DNA from: a virus
IMG/VR virus record: IMGVR_UViG_3300025645_000379
Coordinates: 1 to 26,769 of that record
Strand: one strand, 5' to 3'
Length of the DNA: 26,769 nucleotides
Shown piece by piece: positions 1,065-26,769 of this stretch; the stretch's first letter is position 1, and the number at the start of each line of letters is the position of its first letter. The notes under the pieces were generated by a model, which saw nothing but the letters and a program-made list of their open reading frames with translations, made no database searches and was not told the origin of the DNA. The position numbers were made by a program, and so were the translations under genes.

Positions 1065-1066
1065 GC

Positions 1067-1234
1067 ATGGAAAACTTAACTCAAAAACAGAAAGAAGAGA
1101 TAGCTGAACTGGCTGCTGATAAAGCGTATGACAGATTCTATCTTGCCGTAGGTAAATCAGTGACTAAGAAGCTAATGTGGATTATAGGTGCAGGTGCATT
1201 TGCTGCTTGGTTATACTTTAATGGAGATATGTAA
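1067..1234 (+). CDS. Small single-TM protein, 55 aa
   Basis: ATG at 1067 follows the preceding stop by 2 nt; the 55 codons end in TAA at 1232-1234, whose last A starts the next ATG. The first 35 residues are charged and helical, and residues 36-51 (LMWIIGAGAFAAWLYF) form one membrane-spanning segment. Size and topology resemble small phage membrane proteins in lysis regions, but one TM segment alone does not show a holin or antiholin. The close spacing on both sides makes the gene credible. Confidence 0.55.
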   Translation: MENLTQKQKEEIAELAADKAYDRFYLAVGKSVTKKLMWIIGAGAFAAWLYFNGDM

Positions 1235-1491
1235 TGCCAGATGCTAAATTAACTAAACTAGGACTAACAGCTTACAACAAACCTAAGCGTACACCTAGCC
1301 ACCCTAAGAAGTCTCATGTAGTGGTAGCTAAAGAAGGTGGAGTAACAAAGACTATACGCTTTGGTCAACAGGGAGTTACTGGAGATAAGACTAAAACAAA
1401 ACGATCTGACTCATTTAAAGCTAGGCATGGCAAGAACATAGCCAAAGGTAAGATGTCAGCGGCTTATTGGGCCAATCGTGAAAAATGGTGA
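1234..1491 (+). CDS. DUF6321-like small basic phage protein, 85 aa
   Basis: It begins in a TAATG overlap with the upstream gene. The protein is strongly basic and contains the blocks KPKRTPSHPKKSHVVVAKEG, TIRFGQQGV and SFKARHGKNIAKGKMSAAYW. I recall this set from a conserved phage family of unknown function, which I believe is DUF6321; the number is from memory. The density of Lys, Arg and His suggests nucleic-acid contact, as for a head or DNA-packaging accessory protein. A 13-nt gap separates it from the holin gene, so it is probably co-transcribed with it. Confidence 0.6.
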   Translation: MPDAKLTKLGLTAYNKPKRTPSHPKKSHVVVAKEGGVTKTIRFGQQGVTGDKTKTKRSDSFKARHGKNIAKGKMSAAYWANREKW

Positions 1492-1504
1492 GAGGTAGTA
1501 CAGC

Positions 1505-1909
1505 ATGGGCATATTAAGTAGTTTATTCAGTGGCGGTAGTGCTGTTGCACAGCCTATAGAAGCCATTGGTAACATTATAGACAGTGTGTTTACATCAGAT
1601 GAAGAGAGAGCACAAGGCGAACTACTTAAGCAGAAGTTAGCTATGCGCCCTTCTATGATGCAAGCAGAGATTATGAAGGTACAGGCTAATCACAGGTCTA
1701 CCTTTGTTGCAGGAGCTAGACCCTTTCTCATGTGGGTATGTGGCTTAGGCTTCTTGTTTGCATTTGTTATTAACCCTATCCTACAATGGGTAGCACCAGA
1801 GCTAGGTAGCCCTGAGTTACCCTTAGACGCTATGCTTGAACTTACGTTAGCAATGCTTGGCCTTGCAGGTCTTAGAACAGTAGAAAAATTAAATGGTAAA
1901 GCCACATGA
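1505..1909 (+). CDS. Holin, three-TM (GTA holin) type
   Basis: This 134-aa protein has the layout of the 3-TM holin family of gene-transfer agents and phages. The N-terminus is an amphipathic region (FSGGSAVAQPIEAIGNIIDSVF), followed by a charged helix with DEERAQGELLKQKL, then the typical RSTFVAGARPFLMWVCGLGF junction into a first TM (about 68-92), with further hydrophobic stretches near 95-105 and 107-125. A holin makes the inner-membrane lesion that releases endolysin or triggers lysis. The two peptidoglycan hydrolases here lie far away on the other strand. Its ATG at 1505 follows GAGAGGT, and its end overlaps the next gene by 4 nt (ATGA). Confidence 0.8.
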   Translation: MGILSSLFSGGSAVAQPIEAIGNIIDSVFTSDEERAQGELLKQKLAMRPSMMQAEIMKVQANHRSTFVAGARPFLMWVCGLGFLFAFVINPILQWVAPELGSPELPLDAMLELTLAMLGLAGLRTVEKLNGKAT

Positions 1910-2556
1910 AGACACATAAAGAGATGGTAAACAACGTACTTGTGAGGCTACGGGAACGTGAGGTTGACAGTGTTAATGAGAATAGTTACTCAAAGTTAAT
2001 TAGTTTATTCATTAATGATGCTAAGGAGTTTGTTGAGTCAGCGTGGAATTGGTCTGTTCTTAGGCAAACATTGACTGTAGTTACTCAAGATGGTGTATTT
2101 AACTATGTGCTTACTGACTCAGGTAATAACGTAGCTATACTAGACGTAGTTAACTTAACATCTAATACGTTCTTAAAGTATAAAGACCCACACTGGTTTA
2201 ACAATGTATTTCTTAATAACACACCAGCCGAAGGTAACCCTGACTACTACGTATTTAATGGCGTGAGTGTAGCAGGTGACACACAGGTAGACTTGTACCC
2301 TATCCCTGATGGTGTGTACACTATCTACTTTAACGTAACTATGCGCTCACAGGAGCTTGTGGCTGATGCAGATACAGTACGTGTGCCTCACTTACCTGTA
2401 CAAGCTTTAGCCTACGCTATGGCCCTTGAGGAGCGTGGTGAGGACGGAGGTATGTCAGCAGTATCGGCTAAGGCTCTTGCTCAAAACTTCCTATCTGACG
2501 CTATTGCCTTAGACGCTAACAAGCACCCAGAGGAACTGATCTGGGAGGTCTATTAA
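1906..2556 (+). CDS. Tail tubular protein A-like head-tail adaptor
   Basis: This 216-aa protein is close in size to T7 gp11 (196 aa). It has the usual adaptor layout: an N-terminal helical part (VNNVLVRLREREV, then FINDAKEFVESAWNWSVLR), a beta-rich middle (about 55-150) and a C-terminal helix pair (LPVQALAYAMALEERGEDGG). In T7-like phages this protein forms a dodecameric ring beneath the portal that links head and tail tube. It is followed by a nozzle-like gene as in T7. The start overlaps the holin stop as ATGA. The call rests on motif feel, size and gene order, not on a search. Confidence 0.6.
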   Translation: MKTHKEMVNNVLVRLREREVDSVNENSYSKLISLFINDAKEFVESAWNWSVLRQTLTVVTQDGVFNYVLTDSGNNVAILDVVNLTSNTFLKYKDPHWFNNVFLNNTPAEGNPDYYVFNGVSVAGDTQVDLYPIPDGVYTIYFNVTMRSQELVADADTVRVPHLPVQALAYAMALEERGEDGGMSAVSAKALAQNFLSDAIALDANKHPEELIWEVY

Positions 2557-2558
2557 CC

Positions 2559-4115
2559 ATGGCTAAACAATTAATGTCCTCCTCTATTGCTGCACCTGCA
2601 TTCTATGGCTTAAACACCCAAGAGTCAGGTGTAACACTACAGGAAGGTTTTGCACTACAGGCAGACAACTGCGTCATAGATAAGTTTGGTCGATTAGGAG
2701 CACGTAAGGGCTGGCAAGTATTAAGTACGAGTAAGGACTCCGTAGCGGATGATAACGTAGGTGTAGACTTACTAGGTGTGTCTAATTTTAAGGACATTAC
2801 AGGTGCTGATACCTTATTGTCATGGAGTTCTACTAAGTTCTATAAGGGCACTACAAACCTCGTCACAATCACGCCAACGACTGCAGACACCATATCAGCA
2901 GGTAACTGGCAAGCAGCTACATTAAATGACCATCAATACTTCTTCCAACGTGGTTATGAACCACTGACGTACACGAATGAAACAGGGTCAGAAGAGTTTG
3001 ATTCCTTCAGTAATCATCCACACAGCCACAATGGTGTACCTTATGGCAACACTGTATTAGCGGCTTATGGTCGGTTATGGGTAGCAGACACCACAACTAA
3101 TAAGACAACAGTGTATTTTACTACTGTTCTTGATGGTTCTAACTTTCTTTCAGGTACATCAGGTTCTTTAGACATCTCAAGTGTCCTTACTCAGGGCATG
3201 GATGATATTGTTACACTAGGCGCTCATAACGGCTACTTGATTATATTCTGTAAGAACAACATTATTATCTATGGTGATGGTGATAACTTTCAAGCAGGTA
3301 TGACTACTACGAGCCTTACGCTAGTGGAAGTCATTGAAGGTGTAGGCTGTATTGCTCGTGACAGTGTACAGAATACTGGTGAAGACATCTTGTTCTTAAG
3401 TAACACTGGTATACGTTCATTGAATCGTACTGTACAAGAGAAGTCACAGCCTATGCGAGACATCTCTAAGAATGTACGTGATGATGTAATACAGGCCATT
3501 AACGCTGAGAACATTGATTTAATTAAGTCAGTCTACTCACCTATTAATGCTTTTTACTTAATTACTTTCCCTACGTCACAACAGACTTTTTGTTTTGACA
3601 CCAGAGCACCTTTAGAGGATGGCAGCTTTAGAGCTACAATATGGCCCTCTGTATCACCTAAGGGTTTCTTGTCGGAAGGTTCTACATTATACTTTGCAGA
3701 GGACAATGGCATAGCAGAGTACAAAGGTTATCAAGACAATGGCTCTAAGTACGAAATGGCGTACTACAGTAACTTCTTTGACCTAGGTATGCCTAACGTG
3801 TCAAAGATAGTAAAGAAGCTGTCAGCGACTACAGTAGGAGCTACAGGACAAACCTTTGCACTTAAGATTGGATATGACTATAGCCCAGTATATTATGGTT
3901 ATACATTTACATTAGAAGTAGGTACTGTATACGAGTATGGTATTACCGAGTACGGCATAGGAGAATACTCAGGCTCAGTCTTAATCAACGAACAAAAAGC
4001 ATCAACACAAGGCGCAGGTGACATTATACAGATAGGATTTACTACTGATATAGATGGCGCACCTATGTCATTACAAAAAATTTCATTATATGCCAAACAA
4101 GGTAAGGTACTTTAA
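2559..4115 (+). CDS. Tail tubular protein B / nozzle-like protein
   Basis: This 518-aa protein starts 2 nt after the adaptor stop and is preceded by a GGAGG ribosome binding site inside that gene. The N-terminus contains LQEGFALQADNCVIDKFGRLG and RKGW, a pattern of nozzle proteins in which a strand near the N-terminus notes coordinates of a 'feature' list of the genome; the rest is beta-rich with repeated short Gly/Asn/Asp turns, as in a propeller-like nozzle. T7 gp12 is longer (794 aa), so this would be a compact version. Gene order (adaptor, then this, then fibre) supports a tail-tube role. A P22 gp10-type stabiliser is an alternative with a similar job. Confidence 0.55.
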   Translation: MAKQLMSSSIAAPAFYGLNTQESGVTLQEGFALQADNCVIDKFGRLGARKGWQVLSTSKDSVADDNVGVDLLGVSNFKDITGADTLLSWSSTKFYKGTTNLVTITPTTADTISAGNWQAATLNDHQYFFQRGYEPLTYTNETGSEEFDSFSNHPHSHNGVPYGNTVLAAYGRLWVADTTTNKTTVYFTTVLDGSNFLSGTSGSLDISSVLTQGMDDIVTLGAHNGYLIIFCKNNIIIYGDGDNFQAGMTTTSLTLVEVIEGVGCIARDSVQNTGEDILFLSNTGIRSLNRTVQEKSQPMRDISKNVRDDVIQAINAENIDLIKSVYSPINAFYLITFPTSQQTFCFDTRAPLEDGSFRATIWPSVSPKGFLSEGSTLYFAEDNGIAEYKGYQDNGSKYEMAYYSNFFDLGMPNVSKIVKKLSATTVGATGQTFALKIGYDYSPVYYGYTFTLEVGTVYEYGITEYGIGEYSGSVLINEQKASTQGAGDIIQIGFTTDIDGAPMSLQKISLYAKQGKVL

Positions 4116-4117
4116 CT

Positions 4118-4903
4118 ATGTCTAATTATACTAAAGCAACTAACTTTGCATCAAAGGACGCCTTACCCACAGGTAACGCTCTCAAGACTGTCAGTGGTAC
4201 AGAGATTGATGACGAGTTTTCAAGCATACAAACGTCTGTAGCTACTAAAGCTAACCTAAGTGCGCCTACGTTCACAGGTATACCAGCGGCACCTACAGCA
4301 GCTACAGCGACTAACAGCACACAGATAGCCACCACAGCGTTCACACAGGCCGCTATAGTGGCTGGTGTTGCAGCTAAGGCACCAATAGATGCCCCTACGT
4401 TCACAGGCGTCCCTGCGGCTCCTACAGCGGCTGCTGGCACTAATACTACACAGTTGGCTACTACAGCCTTTGTACAGGCCGCTACGCCCACAGCAGCGAC
4501 TATTAATGGTCTAGCATATCCTGTAGGCTCTGTGTACACATCAGTAGTTGCAACTAACCCTAACAGCTTACTTGGCGTAGGTACTTGGGCAGCCTTTGGT
4601 GCTGGTCGTGTCTTAGTGGGTATCAATGCAAGTGACAGTGACTTTAATACAGTAGAGGAAGTAGGCGGTGCTAAGACTGACTCACATACGCTTTCAATCA
4701 ATGAAATACCTAGTCACGTTCACGGGTACACAGGCGTACAAGGTACAGGTAACCCAGATGGTGCTAGCGACTCTGTAACAGCAGGTCACGCTAATTCATA
4801 CCCAAGGCTGACTGAACTGGATTATGAAGGCGGTGGAGCAGCCCACTCACACGATATTGTACAGCCGTATATTGTCGTATACTTTTGGAAGAGGACAGCA
4901 TAA
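4118..4903 (+). CDS. Tail fibre / collar protein with two tail repeats
   Basis: 261 aa. Residues 49-79 and 92-122 are two copies of a repeat of the type APTFTGxPAAPTA...TTAFxQAA, well known from tail-fibre shafts. From about residue 134 the protein reads YPVGSVYTSV...LLGVGTWAAFGAGRVLVGI, then EIPSHVHGY and AHSHDIVQPYIVVYFWKRT, the typical C-terminal collar domain found in phage tail and baseplate proteins. Its paired HxH motifs (H200/H202, H243/H245) may bind metal as in T4 gp12-type trimers. It is the only fibre-like gene in the window, so it may carry receptor contact. It starts 2 nt after the nozzle gene, and its stop overlaps the next ATG (TAATG). Confidence 0.75.
   Translation: MSNYTKATNFASKDALPTGNALKTVSGTEIDDEFSSIQTSVATKANLSAPTFTGIPAAPTAATATNSTQIATTAFTQAAIVAGVAAKAPIDAPTFTGVPAAPTAAAGTNTTQLATTAFVQAATPTAATINGLAYPVGSVYTSVVATNPNSLLGVGTWAAFGAGRVLVGINASDSDFNTVEEVGGAKTDSHTLSINEIPSHVHGYTGVQGTGNPDGASDSVTAGHANSYPRLTELDYEGGGAAHSHDIVQPYIVVYFWKRTA
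4262..4483 (+). repeat. Two in-frame tail-repeat units in the fibre gene
   Basis: Positions 4262-4354 and 4391-4483 encode the two copies of the APTFTG...TTAF repeat, 129 nt (43 residues) apart. They differ at many third codon positions, so the duplication is old and kept at protein level. Confidence 0.7.
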
Positions 4904-6606
4904 TGGCAGACCCAAGAGGTGAAAGTAATTCGTATGGTGGCTACAGCGGCTCAGGCGGTGGTGGTTATAGTAATAAAAGTGGTGGTAAAGCCCCTAACCA
5001 AAATAACACCAGTAACAACGCAGCGGCAGAGAGAGCAGCAGCAGCGGCAGCTAAAGAGGCTCAAAGAAGAAATGCGGATATGCAAGCGCAAATAAAAGCA
5101 GCCGAAGCACGTAAGCAGATGGATGAAGCAAATGCTCGTTACGAAGCACAACAAGCACAGGCAGCTATGGCAGCAGCTAGAAGGCCTCAAGAACAAAACA
5201 CAAGGGCAGCGGCACCTACTGTGTTTCAACGTAGCTCTCCTGCTGTTCCTTCTATGAACCCTAATCAAGTAAATCAGCCGTATTACTCGCCTTACCAAGA
5301 TCAACCTACTATGTTTCAAAACTCTGGTCTTCCTTTTGGTGGCATGGCTGGTCGCTTTGGAGAAGCGTTAGGACAAGACAATTACTTTGGTGGCTTATTA
5401 AGTGCCTATGGTCAAATTAATCCTTTAGGTTCTATTGCAAACCAAACTACATACGGAATGAATCAAGACGTAAGTAACTCATACTTAAAAGAAGAACAAT
5501 CTAATCCTAATTGGGATAGAATGTCGGAAGCACAGAGAGTACAGGCAGCAAAAGACGCTGTTTACGGGAGCAAGGAAAGTCAAATACCTCGCCCTAGTAA
5601 CTTTAGACCTGAGCAATGGGCGCAAATGACACAAGGACAGAAGCAGTATATGTCTGGTGTAGCTACACCTACTAATGGTGTACAAGACATGGGAGGTTCT
5701 GGTGGCGCTTTTGCTGGTCAGGCTGGTATGGGTAACGCAGGAGGAGGCGGTGGTAACATGATGAACTCTTTTCTTGGTGGGCAACTACCAGAACTTAACA
5801 TGGGCATGGGAAGAGACTACCAGCCAACAGGAGGCACATTCAAGCCTATTACCTTTAGATCAGGCACAGGTAACCCAGACCCTTACGCTGGCTTAAGTGA
5901 CATGGCACAGCAAGGTCAAGGAATGTTTAACGTAGCGGGTCAGGATGCACTACAAGCTGCTGATCAGTTTAATTATAACTTTGACCCACAACAAGCAGGT
6001 CTTGACTTATTTAATGAGCGTTCCTCATTACTTGAGCCAGCCTTTGCACAGCAACGTGCTAAGAACTTAGAACAGATGCAAGGCTTAGGTCGTATAGGCC
6101 TACAGTTATCTGGTGAGGGCTTAGGTGCTGGTGAAAACTCAGGCATGATGAATCCTGATATGTTCGGCATGAACGCTGCACAGTCTCAGGCTTTAGCAGG
6201 GTTAGCCGCACAATCTACTCAAGATGCCTTTGGTCAAGAAGTCCAACGTGCGGGTCTTGACTTGTCACAGTTTAACACTAATCAAGTAACTGATCAACAG
6301 CGTTATGCTAACCTTATGGGTACTGGTCAGAGCATGTTAACAGGTAGCATGTTAGAACCTCAAGTACGCGCACAGTTGTTAGCACAACAACAGACTCAGC
6401 AAGGCTTAGATCAGAGCTATGAGATAGACAGGTATAATGCTGACACTAGCCGTCTTACAGGCCAAGCACAGGCTAACCAAGCTAACTATCAGCCTGACCC
6501 TTGGTTAAGTGCTGGTATAGGTTTAGGCACTTCATTCTTAGGCACTGAGGCTGGTGGTGGTTGGTTATCGGGAGTAGGCGGTGACATATGGGATTTCTTT
6601 ACGTAA
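4903..6606 (+). CDS. Large Gln/Gly/Ala-rich virion protein (probable internal/ejection protein)
   Basis: The ATG at 4903 is chosen over the in-frame TTG at 4885 because it sits about 8 nt after GGAAGAGGA and forms a TAATG overlap with the fibre gene; this gives 567 aa. Residues 1-40 are Gly/Ser/Asn-rich, about 41-95 are Ala/Gln/Arg-rich and likely coiled coil, and the remainder is Gln-, Gly- and Met-rich with a weakly hydrophobic Gly-rich end (about 535-560). No enzyme motif is visible. In T7-like phages the slot after the tail-tube genes holds the internal core proteins that leave the capsid ahead of the DNA, and composition and place fit that role. It could instead be a tail accessory protein. 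Confidence 0.55.
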   Translation: MADPRGESNSYGGYSGSGGGGYSNKSGGKAPNQNNTSNNAAAERAAAAAAKEAQRRNADMQAQIKAAEARKQMDEANARYEAQQAQAAMAAARRPQEQNTRAAAPTVFQRSSPAVPSMNPNQVNQPYYSPYQDQPTMFQNSGLPFGGMAGRFGEALGQDNYFGGLLSAYGQINPLGSIANQTTYGMNQDVSNSYLKEEQSNPNWDRMSEAQRVQAAKDAVYGSKESQIPRPSNFRPEQWAQMTQGQKQYMSGVATPTNGVQDMGGSGGAFAGQAGMGNAGGGGGNMMNSFLGGQLPELNMGMGRDYQPTGGTFKPITFRSGTGNPDPYAGLSDMAQQGQGMFNVAGQDALQAADQFNYNFDPQQAGLDLFNERSSLLEPAFAQQRAKNLEQMQGLGRIGLQLSGEGLGAGENSGMMNPDMFGMNAAQSQALAGLAAQSTQDAFGQEVQRAGLDLSQFNTNQVTDQQRYANLMGTGQSMLTGSMLEPQVRAQLLAQQQTQQGLDQSYEIDRYNADTSRLTGQAQANQANYQPDPWLSAGIGLGTSFLGTEAGGGWLSGVGGDIWDFFT

Positions 6607-6644
6607 CCTAATAGCACACAATAGAAACAAAGAGAATATATAAC

Positions 6645-8006
6645 ATGGCAAATCAAGGTTTATTTACACAAGGCCCGTCTATTGATGACTTGTTAGCAAA
6701 ACGTAATCAACGTGCAAGCACTCTACAGCAGCAACTTATGACTAACGCTGCCCAAGGCGCACGTGACCCTATGAAAGCACAAGCTGCAAGCTTCTTAGGT
6801 TCAAGCTTAGGTCGTGCTTTAGCAGGAGGTATGGACGGAGGTGACAGCGGAAGAGAAGCGTTAGAAGCTAAAGAAGCGGCTAGGGTTGCTTCTCAAGGCG
6901 AGTTCTTTCAAGCTATGCAAGGTGATTCAAAAGCTGCTTTTGCTATGGCTGATAAATTACGTTCTACTTACCCCGAAGCTGCTGTTAAAATGATTAACAT
7001 TGCTCAACAGAAAAAAGCTACGGAAGATGAGGCTTTAAAAACTTCTAATTCATATGAAGCATTGCAAAGTCGTTCTGCACAGATTGGAGAAGACTTAACC
7101 GAATGGAACCCTGAGTTAGCTTTCCGTTTAGTATCGGGTAACGCTACACCAGAAGAATACAAAGAAGGTCTTTCAGAGCTTACTGCTATGAATAAAGACT
7201 CCAATAAAACTGGTGACAGTGCCTTAAAGGGCTGGCAGTTTAACGATGGTGGTGTTTATTCCGATAAAGATGGTAACAGGTATGCACTTACTAATAGTAT
7301 AAACAAAGATGAGAATAGTGCAGATATTCTATATACACCTATAGGTAATGCACCTGCTTATACTAATCAAGCCTTACAGCCTACTGACACTAAAGGTCTT
7401 ACTACAGAACAGCGAACCGCAGAACAAATAGCTGGTTTCCAAGGCCAAGAAGATATGAAAGTTTTCTATGAGCACAGGGCTGATGCTGGTAAGGGTATAG
7501 GTCAAACAACAACTAACCTTAACGATGCCAATCGTATGTTAGAACTTCTTAAGCAGGTTGACACAGGAGGCGTTAAAGTTCTTGCTGGTAAAGCTGTTAG
7601 TGACTTCTTTGGCACTACACCTGCTAACGTATCAGAATTAGATACTATTTCTAAGACTGTTATGCTTGGAAGCCTTAAGTCTCTTTTAGGTGGTCAGTTG
7701 TCGGATGGTGAGCGAGCAGCAGCAACAGAAATACAAGTGGCATTAGAGAAAGGAACTGAGGCAAACACTAGAATAGCGGAACGACTATCACGTGTCTTTA
7801 AAGCTAAGTTAGAACGTGAGCAGTTTGTATTGGGCAATAAGAATACACCCGCTGCTTATCGTGACTTTATGGTACAGCAGTCTATACAGCTAACTCAAGC
7901 TAAACCAGATGGAACCACAGGCGCTGCTACGCAAGTAACGCCCACAGTAAGTCCAAAAACAATAGTATGGAAACGGGACGCAAATGGCGTATTGGTGGCA
8001 CAATAA
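6645..8006 (+). CDS. Virion protein, probable ejection/internal core protein, 453 aa
   Basis: It starts at ATG 6645 after an AGAG site, 38 nt downstream of the preceding stop, the largest gap inside this late cluster. The N-terminal third is Ala/Gln-rich and helical (SIDDLLAKRNQRASTLQQQL, then Gly-rich, then AKEAARVASQGEFFQAM). A helical block near residues 340-390 contains MLGSLKSLLGGQLSDGERAA and ALEKGTEANTRIAERL, resembling helical modules I know from ejected proteins of other podoviruses. No catalytic motif was found. It shares a TAATG overlap with the following gene, so the two are probably made in fixed ratio. The exact role is unproven. Confidence 0.5.
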   Translation: MANQGLFTQGPSIDDLLAKRNQRASTLQQQLMTNAAQGARDPMKAQAASFLGSSLGRALAGGMDGGDSGREALEAKEAARVASQGEFFQAMQGDSKAAFAMADKLRSTYPEAAVKMINIAQQKKATEDEALKTSNSYEALQSRSAQIGEDLTEWNPELAFRLVSGNATPEEYKEGLSELTAMNKDSNKTGDSALKGWQFNDGGVYSDKDGNRYALTNSINKDENSADILYTPIGNAPAYTNQALQPTDTKGLTTEQRTAEQIAGFQGQEDMKVFYEHRADAGKGIGQTTTNLNDANRMLELLKQVDTGGVKVLAGKAVSDFFGTTPANVSELDTISKTVMLGSLKSLLGGQLSDGERAAATEIQVALEKGTEANTRIAERLSRVFKAKLEREQFVLGNKNTPAAYRDFMVQQSIQLTQAKPDGTTGAATQVTPTVSPKTIVWKRDANGVLVAQ

Positions 8007-9958
8007 TGGATAATTATGACCAGCAGCTACCTAACGGACAAACAGCTAACGTACCTACAGATGCAACAAGAGAAGAATTACGTGAAATAACTATAGAATC
8101 TGGCCTTGCTACAGCAGGAGAATGGGAACAGTGGGCGCCTGAGCTTACACCTTTCAGTGAAAAAGCAATGAACTGGATGAAAGAGAATGCTGAGGTTCCC
8201 GTTGGTATGGGTGGTGCTGTTGTAGGAGGTATAGTAGGATCACCTCTTGGGCCTTTTGGTATAGCAGGAGGTTCTATAGTTGGTGGCTCTATTGGTTCTG
8301 CCAGTGGTTCTTTACTGTCCGATCATTTAGGCGGTGATGACTTAGATTACGCAACCGCTGCTACAGAAGCAGCAATTTCTTTAGGTTTAGATGCGGCTAC
8401 TTTAGGTTTAGGTAAGTTTGCATACAAACCTTTAGCGGCTTGGTTTAAGCAACAGAAAGCTACAGGCATGTCCGTACAGGACGCTGCTGATCTTCTTGTG
8501 TCTCAAGCTAGAGCAGGTGATGGTGTCCTTAGTTCTGAGGAATCTCTTAAAGCTACACAGTCTTTACTTGAGCAAGGAGGGGCAACCTTAACGCCTTATC
8601 AAGCAGGTAACGCTACAGGCTGGCAAGTGTTTCAAGAGAAGCTAGGACGCTTAGGTTTCTTTGGTGCTAAGAACTTTGAAGAAAACGCTAAACAAGTTAA
8701 TAAAGTTGTTAGTGAAGGATTCTTAGACATTATGGGTAGGCAAGGTAACCAAGCTTTAGACCCTGATGGTCTTGGTTCTTCTATACATGGTCTTATATTG
8801 GCTGGTAAGGAATCTTTATCACAACAGTATGATATAGGTTTAAGTAAGATTACGGCTACTATGGCAGGTCGTTTGGCTCCTTTAGCACCTACAAGGAATG
8901 TACTTGAAAAATTCCTTAAAGATAATGATAACCCTCTTTATGGTGCTTTAGAACCTGCTACTGAGAAAATGGTTAATGAAGTGTTAACAAACATGGAAAA
9001 ATTAACAGGCTCAAGTATTTCTGCTAGAACTCTTATTCAGTTTGAAAAGAACTTTAAAGCTAAAATACGAGCTATCTCTAATCCACAGTCACCTGACTTT
9101 AACGATAATGCCGCAAGGCAGTTAGAAGGGTTAAGCTCACAGTTTAGAGATGCCATAGAAAAATCTTTAAGCGTTTCTGATAAAGCTGCGGCTAAAGCAT
9201 ATGGAGCACTTAACAAACAATATGCTCAAGGCATTAATACCTTGTTACCTGTAGTTAATAAAAGTATAATGCTTGGAGGCAATAAAGGAAAATTTGAAGG
9301 TTTAGGCAATGCTTTAGTAGGTGATGGTACTTTAGGTGAAACTAGAGCTTTGTTTGCTAGTATAGATGAAGCCTTTAAACAGATAGGTGGCCCTACTATA
9401 CATTTTGCTAATGCAGCAGAAGTCAAGAATGTTGTACGCCAAGGCTACTTAAAAAGAATAATGAAGGATATAGGTCAAGAAAGTTTTGATACTGCTAAGT
9501 ATAAGACACTTGCTTTGGATATGGCAGACCCTAAGCAACAAGCTAGACTTGCGTACATAATGGGTGACAAGTATAAAAGTGTTAAGCAATTGATAAATGC
9601 TATGGCTGAGTCTTCCATTAAGCCCCAAAGTAACATAGGTGAGTTGGCTTTACGTGCGAGGGAGTTTGGTTCTGTAGGTGCTTTAGGTGTTGTAGGTTTA
9701 GGAACTGGAGCAGCAGCGGAAGCAGTTATGGGCGCTGCGTTAATCTTTACTATTCCTATGTTTATGGCTAAGGCCGCTGTTAACCCAAAGCATGTTAATA
9801 AAATATTAGCTTTTGAGAAGACTAACTTTAAAGGCAATAAAACAGCAATGATAACAGCTATGTCTAATATAGTTGGTGATGTAATGCTTGACCAGACCGA
9901 GGAAGATAGGGAAGATATTATAGATGCGTTCAATCAAATGACTTTCGGCACTCAATAG
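8006..9958 (+). CDS. Large virion protein with Gly-zipper membrane segment, 650 aa
   Basis: The ORF is open from 7967, but the ATG at 8006 forms a TAATG overlap with the upstream stop and gives a natural N-terminus (MDNYDQQLPNGQTANVP), so it is preferred. The N-terminus resembles the short beta segment (L-P-x-G-x-x-x-x-V-P) that begins many ejected phage proteins. Residues about 65-108 are a strongly hydrophobic Gly-zipper (VVGGIVGSPLGPFGIAGGS), able to enter membranes. A long helical body follows, and a second hydrophobic Gly/Ala stretch lies near 560-595. Membrane-active segments at both ends suit a protein forming part of a transenvelope DNA conduit, like T7 gp15/gp16. No lytic transglycosylase motif was seen. 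Confidence 0.5.
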   Translation: MDNYDQQLPNGQTANVPTDATREELREITIESGLATAGEWEQWAPELTPFSEKAMNWMKENAEVPVGMGGAVVGGIVGSPLGPFGIAGGSIVGGSIGSASGSLLSDHLGGDDLDYATAATEAAISLGLDAATLGLGKFAYKPLAAWFKQQKATGMSVQDAADLLVSQARAGDGVLSSEESLKATQSLLEQGGATLTPYQAGNATGWQVFQEKLGRLGFFGAKNFEENAKQVNKVVSEGFLDIMGRQGNQALDPDGLGSSIHGLILAGKESLSQQYDIGLSKITATMAGRLAPLAPTRNVLEKFLKDNDNPLYGALEPATEKMVNEVLTNMEKLTGSSISARTLIQFEKNFKAKIRAISNPQSPDFNDNAARQLEGLSSQFRDAIEKSLSVSDKAAAKAYGALNKQYAQGINTLLPVVNKSIMLGGNKGKFEGLGNALVGDGTLGETRALFASIDEAFKQIGGPTIHFANAAEVKNVVRQGYLKRIMKDIGQESFDTAKYKTLALDMADPKQQARLAYIMGDKYKSVKQLINAMAESSIKPQSNIGELALRAREFGSVGALGVVGLGTGAAAEAVMGAALIFTIPMFMAKAAVNPKHVNKILAFEKTNFKGNKTAMITAMSNIVGDVMLDQTEEDREDIIDAFNQMTFGTQ

Positions 9959-9968
9959 AGGTTATACA

Positions 9969-11903
9969 ATGGGAATGTTTGACACAGAGGAATGGGGCAA
10001 GCTGACAGAATCATTAGGTAATAGATATGACAATGTTAAAAACTCCAACAGTGAAGCAGAAAGAGGTGACCTGTCTCAAGGCACTGCCGCCTTTAGAAAC
10101 GTAGGTGAGGTTGCAGGAGGCATTGGTGATATAGTAGGAGCAGGGTTTGACTTTCTAACCCCTGACGCTATTACAGAGCCTATACAGGAAGCTATAGGTA
10201 CTGGTGTTCAGTACGGCATGGATAAGACAGGGGCAACTGAATGGATGCAACAGAACCCTGAGTACGCTAAGAACATAGAAGCAGGTATGAATATCTTAGG
10301 TGTAATCCCTATGGCAAGGGCTGTACCTAACATAGCGAAAGGAGCAGCTAATGCTAGGGGGATGCTTAACAGTAGCCCTTCTAACTTTATACCTAACTTT
10401 TATGGTATTGACAATCCTAATGTTCCTAATACGTTTGCTGAGGGTCTGTTTCAAAGTGCTGTTACAAAAGCAAGTAGAACTATTGACAGTAACAGAGATA
10501 ACTTTATAGGTAATTCATTAAAAAGCGCACACAACCTCATGTCTAAAAACAAAGTCACTAAGAAAGTAGGAGACTTCGGTTTAAAGCAGATTAGTCGTTT
10601 TGATGTTGATGGTAAACAAGCAATGGCTATGTCACGTAAAGTGGTCAGTAGTGCTAAGTGGGCTATAACAGAAAGTGCTAAAGCTTTAGCAACTCTTACT
10701 GTACCTCAGGCTAGGGCTTTATGGAAAGAACAGGGAGTCAACCAAGCTGGTCAGAAGTTAATTAAAGAGCACCTTGATAATGCTGCGGTGGAAGTAGCGG
10801 AAGCTAGGATGCGGGGTAAGCCTACGTCTATTGAACAAACAAGGTCTTTCCAAAAAGCTGTAGCGCAGGGAATATTCATGCGTTATGTAGGCGAACAGGC
10901 AGGTCGTAAAGGCGGTGTATCGGAAGGGTATGACAGGATATTTGAAGCGTCTACTTTTGGTGGTATTATGCCCGTTAGACCTGACGCATATCTTGAGTCT
11001 ATTAAGAGTTTACAAAACATAGCTTTCCGTAAAGATGCTAATGGTAAACAGATTGGGCCTGAGAGGGCCGTAAACGTCCCTGACGAGGTAAACTCTCAAG
11101 CCTTTGATCATATGTTAGCAGTATGGAAGATAAGCCCTGAGCAAGCTAAGGACGCGTTCTTAGTCGTTAAAAAACCACAAGGTTCTGGAGGTGACCATGC
11201 TTCTAGTGTGTACCATAGTAAGTTTAACAAATCATTAAGGGATAGTCACGCCAGAGCTACTAAGGCAGCTAAGAAAGAAAATCGTAAACTTAATGATGTT
11301 GATTTATACAATGAGTTAACACGTTTAAAGCCTGATGGTAAAACTAGAGTTTACCCCGATGTTAACATGAGAAGCTTAAGTCCTGAGGACGTACAAGCCA
11401 AAGGCTTATGGTTTACTCAGAGTGGCTCAGGTCGTGCAGTAGTGGAGGGAGGTATAAATCGTCTTTCTAACTTTAAAGCTAATGGAGGTTTAACTGCTTA
11501 CATATCTGATGAACACAACTTCTTAGAGAACATACCAGTGCTAGGTAGGGCGCTTAATAAGTCTTTACCTGTTCGTGAAATAACTATGACCCCTCCTATC
11601 TCTTTTAACGTACTTAACAAGAGTAAAGGGGTTCATAAGGGTTTTGGTACACGTAATGCAGACAAAGGAAAACTTGACAACACTGTTAACTCTGGCGATT
11701 TAGAGACTATAGCTAACGCCCGTCCTAGCCCACAAGCTCTCAATGCTGAAAGAGCAGGACAGAACAGTGCATATCGCCAAGGGTTATTCACAGGTAGCGT
11801 AGGTATGGCTTTGGGTAATGAGGAACAGCCTCAAGAAGTCCCTTATAGCGGTGAAGTACCTAACAATGAAAACTATCAGCTACCCATGTCTAATGTCAAT
11901 TAA
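9969..11903 (+). CDS. Last late-operon virion protein, 644 aa, unknown
   Basis: It starts at ATG 9969 after AGAGGTTAT, 10 nt downstream of the preceding gene, and ends 12 nt before the terminator stem, so it is the promoter-distal gene of the rightward operon. The N-terminal 130 residues hold a Gly/Ala helical region with hydrophobic parts (VGEVAGGIGDIVGAGFDFL; MNILGVIPMARAVPNIAKGA). The middle is basic and helical, and the C-terminus is Pro/Asn/Glu-rich and probably disordered. I do not recognise a catalytic domain. Position next to the other large late genes suggests another internal or ejected virion protein, less likely a toxin. Confidence 0.45.
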   Translation: MGMFDTEEWGKLTESLGNRYDNVKNSNSEAERGDLSQGTAAFRNVGEVAGGIGDIVGAGFDFLTPDAITEPIQEAIGTGVQYGMDKTGATEWMQQNPEYAKNIEAGMNILGVIPMARAVPNIAKGAANARGMLNSSPSNFIPNFYGIDNPNVPNTFAEGLFQSAVTKASRTIDSNRDNFIGNSLKSAHNLMSKNKVTKKVGDFGLKQISRFDVDGKQAMAMSRKVVSSAKWAITESAKALATLTVPQARALWKEQGVNQAGQKLIKEHLDNAAVEVAEARMRGKPTSIEQTRSFQKAVAQGIFMRYVGEQAGRKGGVSEGYDRIFEASTFGGIMPVRPDAYLESIKSLQNIAFRKDANGKQIGPERAVNVPDEVNSQAFDHMLAVWKISPEQAKDAFLVVKKPQGSGGDHASSVYHSKFNKSLRDSHARATKAAKKENRKLNDVDLYNELTRLKPDGKTRVYPDVNMRSLSPEDVQAKGLWFTQSGSGRAVVEGGINRLSNFKANGGLTAYISDEHNFLENIPVLGRALNKSLPVREITMTPPISFNVLNKSKGVHKGFGTRNADKGKLDNTVNSGDLETIANARPSPQALNAERAGQNSAYRQGLFTGSVGMALGNEEQPQEVPYSGEVPNNENYQLPMSNVN

Positions 11904-17869: not shown

Positions 17870-19594
17870 CTAGTGAGTATCGGCCCAACTATTGCCTACT
17901 TTAAATTCCCCTGCTAAGGGACACCTGAGCTTGAAGTGAATACCAGCAGCCTCAATACAACTAGCTGCTAATGCACCAAACTTAGATGCTTGATCTTCAC
18001 GTACCTCTACTTGAAACTCGTCATGGATATTACCAACAAACTTATAATCTATACCCCATAGTATAGCATATCTGTCAAGAATAATCAAGGCTTGTTTCAT
18101 AATTAAACTACCTGCTGACTGTAAACACGAATTAAGTGCTGCATGTTCTGACCTGATAAACACTTTACGTCCATCTAAGCCTGTTATGTAGCCCTTAGCT
18201 GCTGACTGTGCAACATTTTCCTTAAGCTTTGCAAGTGCTGGTGTAGCCTTGAGGAAACTAGCCTTAAGCTTCTTACCTTTAGCTCTACCGCCACCTGCAA
18301 TACTACCTATCTTCTCGTCACCTGCGCCATATAAATAAGCGTATATGAAAGTCTTGGCCTGATTTCTAGTATCAAGACCAGCAGCTTTCTGGTTAGCTGT
18401 GTGTATGTCTCCTGTGAGTATAGTGTTAGTATAGTCTGCATCATCCATGAAGTGGGCAAGCATTCTCAATTCTAAGCCAGAGGCGTCTATACCAACAAGC
18501 TTATAACCTTTAGGCACTATCCAACATGAGCGACACTCTGGCCCGTAAAGGCTACTAGAGCTAGGCACCTGCGCTAAATTAGGCTTGCTGTGGGTCATAC
18601 GCCCTGTCACAGCACCATTAGTATTAACGTAACCATGTACCCGCCCTGTGTCCTCATTAGCAGCCTCAAGCCAACTACGTACCTGAGCTATGCGCTTACC
18701 TACTAACAGGTAGGAGGCAATCAACTCAGCCTCAGGTATGCCTTTGACATTCTTAAGTATGTCCTCAGACACGATAGGGTGGCCTGTCTCTGTAAAGGCC
18801 TTAGGCTTCCATCCAAAGTGCTTGAGGTAGCGCCCTATCTGTTGCCGTGAAGCAAGGTTAAAAATAGGCCAATCAATACGACTAAAAGGGCCACCTACTT
18901 CTTCCCATCTTTCACCGAGGAACTTGAGTCCAACGATACTGTAACTCCCATCTTTTTTAACTTTAGGTACAATGGCTTTGTAAAAGGTCGGCAAAGGTAA
19001 AAACACTTTCTGCACAATCTCTTCAAGTTCATATGACTTCTCCTGTAATTCCGCTACTAAATCCCTAGCCTTTGGCGAATCCAAAAGCCAGCCGTTTCTA
19101 ATTTGCTTCTGTATGATACGCTGTACGTCATGCTCTAACTCAAGGCTATCAGGCTTAAAGTCCTCTAGCTCTTTAAGTAAAGCTTTGTACACCTCATGGT
19201 TTACGTTTACATCTTGCTCACAGTAAAGGAGCATATCGTGCGTGTAGTGAGTCCAATCACTGTAGTCACCCTTAGGGTATCCAAGCTTCTCGCCCCAGTG
19301 TCCTAGGCTGTGTGCCTCGCGCTGTGGGTCAGCTAGTCTTGACATGACTAATGTGTCTGTAATCTTACAGGCGCTAAAGTCAGTGCCTAGTAACTTCTCA
19401 CATGCTGGTATGTCATAACCTATAATGTTATGCCCTATCACCTCCTGTGCTTGTGCTATTGCTATATTAAATGTAGGCCATTGGCCCTCTACGTATGAGC
19501 TTATGACGCCAGTGTCAATATCCTTAGTGATAATGCACCATACCTTTGTAGGCGCTAGGCCATTAGTCTCTATATCGAATATTAATCTAGTCAT
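17870..19594 (-). CDS. Family A DNA polymerase, T7 type with 3'-5' exonuclease
   Basis: 574 aa. The proofreading domain begins LIFDIETNGL (D7, E9) and continues with CEQDVNVNHEVY. Polymerase motif A is DASGLELRMLAH (D370). Motif B is RNQAKTFIYAYLYGAG (R410, K414, Y418) and motif C is NIHDEF (D525). The residue equivalent to E. coli Phe762 is Tyr (Y418), as in T7, a choice linked with fast virulent phages. The C-terminus GNSWADTH resembles T7's. It is about 130 residues shorter than T7 gp5, perhaps lacking the thioredoxin-binding loop. Start ATG at 19594 follows AGGTAACCT and lies 3 nt after the preceding gene. Confidence 0.95.
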   Translation of the reverse strand: MTRLIFDIETNGLAPTKVWCIITKDIDTGVISSYVEGQWPTFNIAIAQAQEVIGHNIIGYDIPACEKLLGTDFSACKITDTLVMSRLADPQREAHSLGHWGEKLGYPKGDYSDWTHYTHDMLLYCEQDVNVNHEVYKALLKELEDFKPDSLELEHDVQRIIQKQIRNGWLLDSPKARDLVAELQEKSYELEEIVQKVFLPLPTFYKAIVPKVKKDGSYSIVGLKFLGERWEEVGGPFSRIDWPIFNLASRQQIGRYLKHFGWKPKAFTETGHPIVSEDILKNVKGIPEAELIASYLLVGKRIAQVRSWLEAANEDTGRVHGYVNTNGAVTGRMTHSKPNLAQVPSSSSLYGPECRSCWIVPKGYKLVGIDASGLELRMLAHFMDDADYTNTILTGDIHTANQKAAGLDTRNQAKTFIYAYLYGAGDEKIGSIAGGGRAKGKKLKASFLKATPALAKLKENVAQSAAKGYITGLDGRKVFIRSEHAALNSCLQSAGSLIMKQALIILDRYAILWGIDYKFVGNIHDEFQVEVREDQASKFGALAASCIEAAGIHFKLRCPLAGEFKVGNSWADTH

Positions 19595-20013: not shown

Positions 20014-21645
20014 TTAAAAATCGTCATGTGCATTAGCTGCCTTAGTCTCAGGTGCCTGAGTAGCTACCAAGCGACTGCTATGGTTCTCATAAAAGAGCCA
20101 GCCAGCTACCCCTGTACGTCCTGTACGTCTACACTTAACTAGTTGCACCTGTGTACAGTTACGTGCGTAATCATCGTCCGTCATTTTGTCCCGTGACAGA
20201 AGTATGGTATTGAAAGCAATCTGGTTGATTGAACCGCTGCCCTTCAAGTCATACTCGCCTACATCGTGGGCGTCCTTAGCGTGTGGCTTACGCATGTGAC
20301 TAACAATGATAATACTAACACCTGTATTCTTGGCAAGCTTTAGGCACTTATCCATGAACGCATCAATGGTTCCATTCTCATTACTGGTCACCGCTGCTTG
20401 CAGAGGGTCTAGTATTATTATATCACAATCTAAGCCTTTAACCAAGTATTGCATCTTAGCAAATAACTCGTCAGCCTCTAACGCACCTTGATGATCTAAG
20501 ATGTGTAGCTTGTCACTGTTTGCCATTTCGTCATACTTCTCATGGTACAGATTGTAATCCCTGTCCTCATTAGGCACATCTGCAATGTTAGTACCCATGT
20601 AAACCGATAGTAACTTCTCTACTGTCTCGCCAACGTCAGCCTCTAGGAACACACAACCGATCTTCTTAGCACTCTCTACGTACATACCATGCACTAGGTT
20701 ATAAACCATAGTGGTCTTACCTATGGACGTTAAGGCGCCTATGACTGTCACCTCACCTGCTGCGATACCGCCATTCATCATGGCATTAAGACTACCAAAG
20801 CTTGCAGGTAGTGGCGTGACTTCTTCTGTACCTCGCTTAAGAAACTTATCCCACACGTCTGAATCACCTAGGCTTACGACACCCTCAGGCTTGTAGGCTT
20901 TAGCGTCCCACCAGCATTTAGTGTACTCACGTACCCTGTTGGCCTTGAGCATATCGCCAGCGTCCTTAAGGGGCAGGGTGCATACCTTAGCCTTACGGGG
21001 GCTAAACAAAGGTAATACATCAGCCGCAGCCTTGATACCTGCCTCGTCTGAGTCAAAGCATATGACTACCTTATCAAATGTCTCAAGGTATTCTAAACTG
21101 GCCTTAACGTCCTTGACTGCGCTGTTGGCGCCTGAGCGAATGCTAACGGCAGGAAAGCCACCATTCATTTCATAGGCTGCCATGGCGTCTATCTCACCTT
21201 CTGTAATGGTTATGTACTTACCACCTGCTGCAAAGGATTGCTGACCAAACAAGCCAGCGCTGCCTAGGTCACCTGTGGCATAAAAATCCTTGGTTGCTAC
21301 GTTACGCACCTTAGTGCCTACTACTTTGTTTCCCTCCTGATTGTGGTATGGGTAATGGTGCTTACTAATGCTACCATCCTCACCATTCTCTACTGTGACG
21401 CCATAACGCTTGGCTGTGTCCATGCTTATGCGTCTATCCTGTATTGCTGCTATTGTGCCTGTCATTTCTAAAGGCCTCGCTCTTGTCTTATTAGTATTAA
21501 CTACTGACCCATCACCATGTATGTACGCATTACATGAGAAGCATACTTGATGATTGTCTGAGTAAATTGCATTAGCATCTGATGAACCACAAGAGGAACA
21601 AGGGCCATGCTTTACAAAGGTACTCTCTGTCTGTTCTTTACGCAT
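20014..21645 (-). CDS. T7 gp4-like DNA primase-helicase
   Basis: 543 aa. A zinc-binding domain (C16, C19, C35, C38), TOPRIM primase core (ITEGEIDA near 147-154; CFDSDEAG near 197-204) and DnaB-type helicase follow in the T7 order. The helicase has Walker A ALTSIGKTT (about 304-312), Walker B IIILDPLQ (D413) and the SHMRKPHAKD...DLKGSGSINQ block seen in T7 gp4. The protein makes primers and unwinds the fork. The acidic tail (AHDDF) resembles polymerase- or SSB-docking tails. ATG at 21645 is chosen because the zinc domain begins 12 residues later. It is separated from the upstream gene by an 83-nt spacer with a hairpin. Confidence 0.95.
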   Translation of the reverse strand: MRKEQTESTFVKHGPCSSCGSSDANAIYSDNHQVCFSCNAYIHGDGSVVNTNKTRARPLEMTGTIAAIQDRRISMDTAKRYGVTVENGEDGSISKHHYPYHNQEGNKVVGTKVRNVATKDFYATGDLGSAGLFGQQSFAAGGKYITITEGEIDAMAAYEMNGGFPAVSIRSGANSAVKDVKASLEYLETFDKVVICFDSDEAGIKAAADVLPLFSPRKAKVCTLPLKDAGDMLKANRVREYTKCWWDAKAYKPEGVVSLGDSDVWDKFLKRGTEEVTPLPASFGSLNAMMNGGIAAGEVTVIGALTSIGKTTMVYNLVHGMYVESAKKIGCVFLEADVGETVEKLLSVYMGTNIADVPNEDRDYNLYHEKYDEMANSDKLHILDHQGALEADELFAKMQYLVKGLDCDIIILDPLQAAVTSNENGTIDAFMDKCLKLAKNTGVSIIIVSHMRKPHAKDAHDVGEYDLKGSGSINQIAFNTILLSRDKMTDDDYARNCTQVQLVKCRRTGRTGVAGWLFYENHSSRLVATQAPETKAANAHDDF

Positions 21646-22299: not shown

Positions 22300-22328
22300 A
22301 TTATACTAAACTTCTTAAACCCTGTCAA
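22300..22328 (-). promoter_or_regulatory. Perfect sigma-70 promoter for the replication operon
   Basis: On the minus strand TTGACA (22328-22323) is followed by 17 nt and TATAAT (22305-22300), an exact consensus in all 12 positions with the ideal spacer. It points leftward to the SSB-like gene, primase-helicase and the rest of the replication and nucleotide genes. It lies right after the small-gene block ending at 22331, so the replication genes can be expressed separately by host RNA polymerase. Confidence 0.92.
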
Positions 22329-22585: not shown

Positions 22586-22761
22586 GGTGAATCCCCTTTA
22601 ACTTCGTTTATGTTAATGTCTATTTCTAAGTCAACATTATAACTGGCTTCGTTTGAGTATGTCAAGCACTTTCCACACAGATCAATAAATAAATCTGTAT
22701 CTTTGTCTTTTCTACTCAGTTCTATGTCATTAAGTATGACGTTACACGCTTTACACCTCAT
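22567..22761 (-). CDS. Small zinc-ribbon protein, 64 aa
   Basis: MRCKAC and LCGKC supply two CxxC pairs (C3/C6 and C29/C32), the pattern of a single zinc ribbon. The remainder is acidic and probably flexible. I recall very similar short 'CKAC...NDxELSRKDK...DLCGxC' proteins from many T7-like phages, where the role is unknown; binding to nucleic acid or to host RNA polymerase is the usual guess. The start overlaps the upstream stop (ATGA). Confidence 0.65.
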   Translation of the reverse strand: MRCKACNVILNDIELSRKDKDTDLFIDLCGKCLTYSNEASYNVDLEIDININEVKGDSPWLIQQ

Positions 22762-25084: not shown

Positions 25085-25267
25085 CTAGTTATTTACTGTA
25101 GTCTCTACCAGTTGAAAGGCCATACAATCCATTATTGTGCCCGTAATACCCGCTTTTTTGAATTGGTTAAGTATCTTAGATGCCTCCTCAAGCGTCTCAT
25201 ATACCCTAGTAAAAGCAATATCAGTGGTTCCTAGTGTGTGAATGGTGAGTTTATATGCTTCCATCAT
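25085..25267 (-). CDS. Small protein, 60 aa, unknown
   Basis: The ORF opens at 25291, but the ATG at 25267 lies 5 nt after GGAGC and overlaps the upstream stop as ATGA, so it is preferred. The sequence (MMEAYKLTIHTLGTTDIAF...) reads as a small alpha/beta domain: strand, helix (LEEASKILNQFKKAG), strand. No motif is recognised. Confidence 0.55.
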   Translation of the reverse strand: MMEAYKLTIHTLGTTDIAFTRVYETLEEASKILNQFKKAGITGTIMDCMAFQLVETTVNN

Positions 25268-25563
25268 GTGCGCTCCTGATAATCTGACCATGCTGCTATT
25301 TCATCATCATTAAAATAGTGTCCATTGTGGAAGCCACCATTCGCCCATACCCACGTGACAAACTCAAGCTTGTCATTTTGTGCCATAACTACGTAATGAT
25401 GATCGTCATGGAAGTCTGTATCCTTCCACGACATGATGGCGATACCTTTACCTCTAGCAGTATTAAACATATGACGTTGAGCCTTCATGCTAGCCTCTAG
25501 CCATTCCTCATGCTTAAGGCCTTGTGCGTCTATTTGTGCGTCTGTGGTGTAGTTAGTAGTCAT
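25264..25563 (-). CDS. First gene of the leftward arm, 99 aa, unknown
   Basis: The frame is open from 25650, but the ATG at 25563 has AGGAG at 25571-25575 upstream and gives MTTNYTTDAQIDAQGL; this start is preferred. The protein holds a HDDHHYVV cluster, FVTWVWANGGFHNGHYF and a final acidic helix, with many His and Trp. It could bind metal, but no family is recognised. It is the gene nearest to the origin-like region, so probably among the first expressed leftward. Confidence 0.6.
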   Translation of the reverse strand: MTTNYTTDAQIDAQGLKHEEWLEASMKAQRHMFNTARGKGIAIMSWKDTDFHDDHHYVVMAQNDKLEFVTWVWANGGFHNGHYFNDDEIAAWSDYQERT

Positions 25564-25642
25564 AGTAATGCTCCTGTGGCCTGTGGCCTGTTGTATTGAT
25601 GACACTAGACTTAATGCAATACACGTGCCAACAATGTTAAAC

Positions 25643-25771
25643 CTAGGCATAGCAAGGGCTAGAGGCTATATAGGCATAAGCAAGGCATAGCACCAATGCA
25701 CCATAGTAGTGCATAAATATGACGTTATATTGACACTATTGCCTGATAACTAGGCATGGCAAGGGCTAGAG
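25643..25771. repeat. 22-bp direct repeat in the control region
   Basis: Positions 25643-25664 and 25750-25771 match in 21 of 22 bases (CTAGGCAT, then A or G, then GCAAGGGCTAGAG), 107 bp apart. A degraded relative (TAGGCATAAGCAAGGCATAG) lies near 25671-25691. They bracket the first of the three 15-bp dyads, suggesting a repeated binding region. Confidence 0.65.
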
Positions 25772-25811
25772 ACACGCACCATTATAGTGCTAGGGCGCAC
25801 CATTGTAGTGC
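25698..25811 (-). promoter_or_regulatory. Three 15-bp dyads (GCACCAT-N-NTAGTGC), possible operators and promoter
   Basis: Near-identical inverted repeats lie at 25698-25712, 25776-25790 and 25797-25811, each of the form GCACCATnnTAGTGC. Read on the minus strand their centres resemble -10 boxes: TACTAT, TATAAT (exact, 25786-25781) and TACAAT. No good -35 box is seen, so a promoter here would need an activator or be weak. A dimeric DNA-binding protein is the natural ligand; the winged-helix gene at 22925 is a candidate. Confidence 0.6.
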
Positions 25812-25999
25812 GGGTATCTTAAGCAAGTATCATGCCAAGTTTATACCTGCGCCTTTCTATTGTGCGCACGTGCGTACCTAACACATAAGTAAACCAATGT
25901 AAACAATATAAGCTTAAATAGAGTAAATACTTTACCCATGTCATAGCATAGGTATTCACTAGCATGTCATAGACGAGCATATAGAGGCCTTAATGGGCC

Positions 26000-26286
26000 T
26001 GTGGATAAGTTATGTAACTTATGTACAGGTTATGCACAGGTTACTCATGTCTCCATAGGCACCCACACTGGCACACACTTGTAAACCTGTGACTACACAA
26101 GCCACAATAGTCACGCTATTGACAACCAGTGTAAACCTGTGGTAACTCATGGGCCTGTGGATAAACCTGTGTACTTCCTGTGGATAACTCACGGGCCTGT
26201 GGATAACTTAAGGACTTGAGTTATCCACAGGCTACCTCAGACCCTGTGGATAACCAGTGTATAACCAGTTAGTAACCTGTGGATAA
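26000..26286. other. Cluster of consensus DnaA boxes, probable replication origin
   Basis: The exact DnaA box TGTGGATAA occurs at 26000, 26156, 26179, 26198, 26245 and 26278 (left ends), and its complement TTATCCACA at 26221-26229. TTATGCACA at 26030-26038 fits the relaxed consensus. Most lie in the longer form CCTGTGGATAAC, and GGGCCTGTGGATAA occurs three times. Next to it is an AT-rich zone that could unwind. This is the layout of a bacterial origin. A DnaA-controlled promoter or a site that titrates DnaA is the alternative. Confidence 0.75.
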
Positions 26287-26334
26287 CTTTAGGGGGCGGG
26301 AGGGCTGGCGTTGGCTGTAGTTACAGTGGCTACC

Positions 26335-26351: not shown

Positions 26352-26502
26352 TAGCATTTTACTTTGACAAAAGTCAATAAAAGATTACAAAAGAAAACAC
26401 AGGTAAACCCTTGGTGTACATGGGGATGAGAGTTATTCTCATGTGTAACCTAAAGGAAGAACATTAGTTACATAAAGTTACAAAAGAAACACAAGAAATA
26501 TA

Positions 26503-26531
26503 TTGACATTCTGCTCTAAATATGTTATAAT
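26503..26531 (+). promoter_or_regulatory. Perfect sigma-70 promoter pointing right (early genes)
   Basis: TTGACA at 26503-26508, a 17-nt spacer and TATAAT at 26526-26531 match the consensus at all 12 positions. It would be read by host RNA polymerase as soon as DNA enters the cell and drive genes beyond the right edge. The bases after the -10 box (ATACTTAAG) resemble those after the leftward promoter at 22300-22328. Confidence 0.93.
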
Positions 26532-26580
26532 ATACTTAAGTTGTAAAGCTTCTACTTAAGAACCTTTTAGTTATTCATTA

Positions 26581-26750
26581 ATGATCAATTAAAGCACTAC
26601 TTAAGAATCTTTAGTATACTTAAGACTCTTACAGTTTATTCATAATGATCAATTAAAGCACTACTTAAGAATCTTTAGTATACTTAAGACTCTTACAGTT
26701 TATTCATAATGAATCAATTAAAGATTCTTAAGTATACTTAAGTAAGACTC
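26581..26750 (+). repeat. 64-bp tandem repeats with CTTAAG sites in an early leader
   Basis: Copies 26581-26644 and 26645-26708 are essentially identical (period 64), a shortened third copy starts at 26709, and a degraded one precedes at about 26546-26580. Each full unit has two CTTAAG sites, a GTATAC and an ATCAATTAAAG word. The third holds the 16-bp palindrome CTTAAGTATACTTAAG (26727-26742). There are eight CTTAAG sites between 26535 and 26742. All lie in the transcript made from the promoter at 26503. Confidence 0.85.
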
Positions 26751-26760
26751 AATCTCAACA

Positions 26761-26767
26761 AAGAGGT
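26761..26767 (+). promoter_or_regulatory. Ribosome binding site for a gene starting beyond the window
   Basis: AAGAGGT at the last bases of the window matches the AGAGGTAAC sites used by several genes here. A start codon is expected within about 10 nt to the right, which would give the first rightward early gene. Confidence 0.6.
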
Positions 26768-26769
26768 AA

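Follow-up and report, generated by a model that had tools for sequence, protein, structure and literature searches.

Our analysis of a viral DNA stretch of 26,769 nucleotides (IMG/VR record IMGVR_UViG_3300025645_000379, here referred to as the window) revealed an ordered array of DnaA boxes in the only large noncoding junction of the phage, where the terminase/late and early/replication operons diverge. The sequence establishes the boxes and their register, as well as their confinement to the junction, recurrence, and turnover among relatives. As to the role of the array, we lean, tentatively, toward the capture (titration) of host DnaA as its main effect, with the array being one version of a swappable cassette. 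An origin of replication is a close rival, and the two readings are not firmly separated.

The original prediction placed seven exact boxes and one variant, with no gene among them, within positions 26000 to 26286. A motif count confirmed the seven exact TTATCCACA boxes, of which one lies on the plus strand and six on the minus strand, as well as one TTATGCACA, and no open reading frame of at least 60 amino acids covers this interval. The sites are arranged as follows:

26000–26008, minus strand: exact DnaA box, 156 bp apart from the main group
26019–26038, plus strand: degenerate double box TTATGTACA-GG-TTATGCACA with an 11-bp period (TTATGCACA at 26030)
26156–26164, minus strand: exact DnaA box
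26179–26187, minus strand: exact DnaA box
26198–26206, minus strand: exact DnaA box
26221–26229, plus strand: exact DnaA box, reversed relative to the others
26245–26286, minus strand: four boxes in an 11-bp register, in the order strong (26245–26253), weak, weak, and strong (26278–26286)

No further exact TTATCCACA box was found elsewhere in the whole 26,769-base record, in which this sequence is the most clustered 9-mer. Dinucleotide shuffles (n = 5000) of the 316-bp region yielded a mean of 0.0048 boxes and a maximum of 1, compared with the 7 observed. The window thus holds both the cluster of consensus DnaA boxes that characterizes a DnaA-dependent origin and the several high-affinity boxes, as predicted from the consensus, that characterize a DnaA titration locus.

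Counting of the boxes in relatives showed that the nearest ones have 4 to 9 exact boxes in the corresponding position and that, as in the window, the near-complete records carry them only at the junction. When IMG/VR was scanned with the motif only (three boxes within short gaps), at least 120 contigs were recovered, compared with 19 for the reversed motif; among the 120 contigs listed of these at least 120, 39 encode relatives of the terminase or portal of the window phage. In 81 loci selected by their terminase, 370 kb of junction-side sequence contained 68 exact boxes and 232 kb from the opposite side contained 1; permuted 9-mers averaged 3.6 in these loci. We also gathered 110 junctions by protein similarity, without selection for the motif. 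Their top repeated 9-mer was the exact DnaA box, which occurred at least twice within 500 bp in 27 loci, compared with 2 loci for the best shuffled 9-mer; CTTAAG-containing 9-mers were the next most repeated motif. Nevertheless, the array is a recurrent minority trait, since at least three clustered exact boxes were present in only 16 of the 110 unselected junctions.

The geometry of the arrays supports the earlier reading of the boxes as DnaA sites. Across 45 arrays, the spacing between boxes of the same orientation peaked at 11/12, 22/23, and 33 bp. A spacing of 11 or 12 bp leaves 2 or 3 bp between boxes, which is the gap preferred by E. coli DnaA in vivo (PMC11317965). Examined family-wide, the in-register positions that intervene in the 22-bp and 33-bp registers proved to be weak boxes: they differ from the box by a mean of 3.8 mismatches between strong boxes 22 bp apart and 3.3 mismatches inside 33-bp gaps, against a background of 6.6, in family arrays that are not phylogenetically independent. 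Duplication followed by decay could yield part of this register pattern. Furthermore, 17 of the 51 one-mismatch variants within the arrays fall at position 5 (P = 2 × 10−5), and E. coli oriC itself contains TTATACACA, a variant at that position. Because the spacing, the in-register weak boxes, and the variation at position 5 all match the behavior of DnaA, we consider it very likely that host DnaA binds the array. The strong and weak boxes in an 11-bp register would form an ordered docking array that allows cooperative binding.

Ordered strong and weak boxes with 2- to 3-bp gaps are also what a DnaA-dependent origin is expected to contain. The array shares with E. coli oriC the consensus TTATCCACA boxes, their GTTATCCACAGG-like context, the in-register weak boxes, and AT-rich DNA nearby. 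In contrast to oriC, it comprises more strong boxes, it is swapped out in near relatives, and a GC-rich element lies between the boxes and the AT-rich zone. From the late side, the junction consists of an AT-rich zone containing CTTAAG motifs and a sigma-70 promoter, the GC-rich element, the boxes, and the early promoter region. Genes from 221 to 11903 point rightward and look structural, while those from 25563 down to 11966 point leftward and encode a primase-helicase, polymerase, exonuclease, endonuclease I, and ribonucleotide reductase. Past the right end of the window, near-complete relatives carry terS, terL, and portal, pointing away from the junction. The relevant features are:

17870–19594, minus strand: family A DNA polymerase
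20014–21645, minus strand: T7-type primase-helicase
26089–26114: dyad GTGACTA-N12-TAGTCAC
26292–26304: GC-rich element of the CCACGCCCCCGCCCCC type, adjoining the array and recurring in relatives
26451–26769: AT-rich zone, about 75% AT, with CTTAAG motifs
26503–26531, plus strand: perfect sigma-70 promoter TTGACA-N17-TATAAT directed toward terS and the late operon, recurring in near relatives

The dyad occurs in 15 of 22 near relatives, at one or two copies per genome, in the junction only and always with a 12-bp spacer. A 64-bp tandem repeat of 2.7 copies, rich in CTTAAG, occupies positions 26553 to 26723 on the late side. Two more perfect sigma-70 promoters (22300–22328 and 22636–22665) read into the replication genes, in line with transcription by the host polymerase.

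The original prediction held that the phage borrows host DnaA to open its origin, and we regard such a function as a serious possibility: at a DnaA-dependent, perhaps auxiliary, origin, a DnaA filament would open positions 26451 to 26769, and the phage primase-helicase and polymerase would follow. The parts of that proposal that stood are the DnaA-like character of the boxes and their confinement to the junction in near-complete relatives, which leaves one site per near-complete genome. The oriC-like ordering and the AT-rich zone, which would be the unwinding element if the junction were an origin, argue in the same direction. However, the AT content of 0.75 to 0.76 at positions 26451 to 26750 (0.49 to 0.53 over most of the array) begins approximately 165 bp from the nearest box, beyond the GC-rich element, the zone also holds a promoter, and it is present in box-free relatives too. 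Similarly, GC skew changes sign near the junction, as an origin at this place would predict, but the coding strand switches there as well, and we therefore rejected the skew as independent evidence for an origin. Any argument from position, including one for capture, is also weakened because the junction is the sole large noncoding space, which may by itself account for the conserved location.

The absence of an RNA polymerase gene had been a further part of the argument for an origin. A search for the T7-type RNA polymerase (PF00940) was negative for the window record and for seven relatives, whereas it did detect the polymerase in two T7-type controls, which bears out the earlier statement for the window. 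A phage DnaA gene was looked for and not found. The description of the virus as a T7-like phage held only in part: the T7-type replication genes are present, but the single-subunit RNA polymerase of the T7-type Autographiviridae was not found, and the families of the large terminase and portal differ from those of T7. No close match of the large terminase was found in an annotated phage collection, and a search of bacterial genome contigs, intended to identify the host, yielded no relative. Contig ends were uninformative about the physical ends of the genome; the end overlaps of two relatives (G001 and G012) are imperfect, and two of the seven searched for the polymerase (G008 and G011) close on themselves with 127-bp overlaps, which are probably assembly overlaps.

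Turnover of the array argues against an obligatory origin. A relative with nine boxes (L038) and one with none (L031) share 98% identity across terS and the AT-rich zone, until 7 bp short of the first box; the similarity falls across the stretch holding all nine boxes and recovers beyond it. Two further relatives (L022 and L023) likewise lack boxes. Close relatives that share the replication genes thus have not all kept the array, contrary to what an origin would be expected to show, and these box-free relatives exclude it as an obligatory element. On the terminase tree, for which arrays were partly enriched in the sampling, we counted 22 changes of array state. None of the early gene families clearly tracks this state, and hence no phage regulator gene was linked to it. 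In box-free L023, a different repeat array (TAACTCAAG/CTTGAGTTA) is present at the same position (5600–5850).

In four loci (L388, L407, L408, and L410), the boxes are replaced by up to nine sigma-54 −24/−12 motifs within about 200 bp, on both strands, in the junction upstream of terL. The sigma-54 dyad GCAA-N6-TGCC was also found by an assumption-free search, in 16 unselected junctions compared with a shuffled maximum of 5. As judged from their motifs, these arrays would be bound by sigma-54 polymerase. Mutual exclusion of the DnaA and sigma-54 arrays was rejected as a rule, as the counts show a trend only (1 with both, 43 with DnaA only, and 13 with sigma-54 only; P = 0.07). The DnaA array thus appears to have been gained, lost, and swapped repeatedly across the virus family, in some cases for sites that a different host protein would bind.

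Arrays in other phages bear on the same question. Clustered exact boxes between terminase and early genes are likewise found in Berlinvirus P483 and A7 and in Klebsiella phage FBKp16, where the arrays (loci L242, L244, and L243, respectively) lie in the terminase/early intergenic or terminal-repeat region. P483 has five exact boxes near its ends and FBKp16 has six, in both cases with 11-bp tandem box pairs as in the group of the window. A7 has four boxes, which are repeated inside the terminal direct repeats. In contrast to the window phage, P483 and FBKp16 possess an RNA polymerase, which we confirmed in both, and the A7 array is situated inside terminal direct repeats. Since T7-type phages with their own polymerase carry such arrays, the array is not a consequence of the absence of RNA polymerase, and its proposed role as a substitute for RNA-polymerase-primed origins could not be upheld. 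We found no paper explaining the P483, A7, and FBKp16 arrays and no literature on DnaA boxes in Autographiviridae.

Collectively, the box-free L031 despite its near identity to L038, the 22 state changes, the sigma-54 arrays in place of boxes, and the end arrays of polymerase-bearing T7-type phages lead us to favor capture over an obligatory origin. Many copies of the phage genome would capture host DnaA, so that the host protein would be titrated, and the DnaA array would be one version of a swappable cassette, other versions of which would carry arrays of sites for the sigma-54 RNA polymerase. We conjecture that selection acts on capture and not on origin opening. The E. coli chromosome contains DnaA titration sites, including datA (PMC12371093), and such sites resemble the phage array in having dense high-affinity boxes that could titrate DnaA; the array differs in lying on a phage genome, where titration is a conjecture. 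The sponge that the original prediction ranked second fits the turnover and the sigma-54 arrays at least as well as an origin does, capture itself still being conjectural. Against capture, the ordered strong and weak boxes are more oriC-like than a plain sponge would require.

Two other roles appear less probable. DnaA may act here on transcription or DNA handling, either by regulating or insulating the divergent promoters between which the array lies or in a T5-like block that pauses genome entry. E. coli DnaA controls genes via double boxes (PMC11317965). The terminal repeats of T5-type phages contain box-like repeats, and the injection stop signal of T5 is described as carrying DnaA boxes (PMC13250531). 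This signal resembles the array in that its repeats, which include DnaA boxes, lie close to the end of the genome; it differs in belonging to another phage group and in its function, which is the arrest of DNA transfer (PMC13250531). Sigma-54 complexes could act as blocks too. Nevertheless, box number, spacing, and promoter distance differ widely among relatives, and we consider this role unlikely. A role of the repeats as sites for a phage protein, for instance one that packages DNA or processes concatemers, as with the short repeats beside T7 ends, is very improbable: although terS adjoins the junction and other repeats (CTTGAGTTA and CTTAAG) occupy the same place in relatives, the top 9-mer is the exact DnaA consensus, with DnaA-type spacing and DnaA-type variants, and such boxes are also found in unrelated phages.

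To our knowledge, the use or titration of DnaA is rarely considered for lytic phages. A swappable DnaA array that recurs in one phage group, present also at the ends of unrelated T7- and T5-type phages, would therefore offer a testable case of phages that exploit or disarm the host initiator.

On its early side, the array borders a putative NtrC/sigma-54 promoter region, which is perhaps a more surprising find than the array itself:

25821–25838, minus strand: sigma-54-type −24/−12 motif TTGGCATGATACTTGCTT
25796–25812: NtrC-type site CGCACTACAATGGTGCG
25775–25791: NtrC-type site AGCACTATAATGGTGCG
25697–25713: NtrC-type site TGCACTACTATGGTGCA
25613–25631, minus strand: sigma-54 promoter TTGGCACGTGTATTGCATT, before the first early gene
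25264–25563, minus strand: first early gene, starting at an internal ATG behind AGGAG

A 128-amino-acid reading of the first early open reading frame, with a weak integrase match, was rejected because, with the later ATG behind AGGAG, the start coincides with that in the relative G001. The TTGGCACGTGTATTGCATT promoter follows the nearest NtrC site by 82 bp (start to start), and the other two NtrC-type sites lie approximately 180 to 200 bp upstream of it; the region therefore has the −24/−12 element before a gene start and the NtrC site about 70 to 150 bp upstream that define an NtrC/sigma-54 promoter. Shuffles of the window led us to expect 0.055 sigma-54 motifs and 0.005 NtrC sites, compared with the 2 and 3 observed, and the NtrC pattern recovered both E. 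coli glnA sites. As at E. coli glnAp2, NtrC sites are followed by a sigma-54 promoter, at a distance of 82 bp in the phage and 89 bp at glnAp2; unlike glnAp2, the phage promoter precedes an early gene and has three NtrC-type sites instead of the two at glnA. One relative (L030) carries GCACTATATTGGTGC, which is identical to one of the E. coli glnA sites.

The combination of sites in this glnA-like region (25613–25838), found repeatedly within the phage group, suggests that early expression is tied to the nitrogen state of the host, and the adjacent promoter would then link phage early expression to host nitrogen limitation. It is possible, if rather doubtful, that the junction as a whole is an exchangeable decoy cassette, in which DnaA or sigma-54 arrays drain a host protein beside early promoters that read nitrogen through NtrC and sigma-54. 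If so, a global host protein would be withdrawn from host service as phage copies accumulate. We found no paper on an NtrC/sigma-54 phage promoter and no literature example of phage early expression tied to host nitrogen limitation. When IMG/VR was scanned for NtrC sites with a sigma-54 promoter after them, 37 contigs were recovered, compared with none for the control, and most of the contigs examined encode relatives of the genes of the window phage. In near relatives the promoter is directed at the early genes, and in a more distant set it is directed at the terminase operon.
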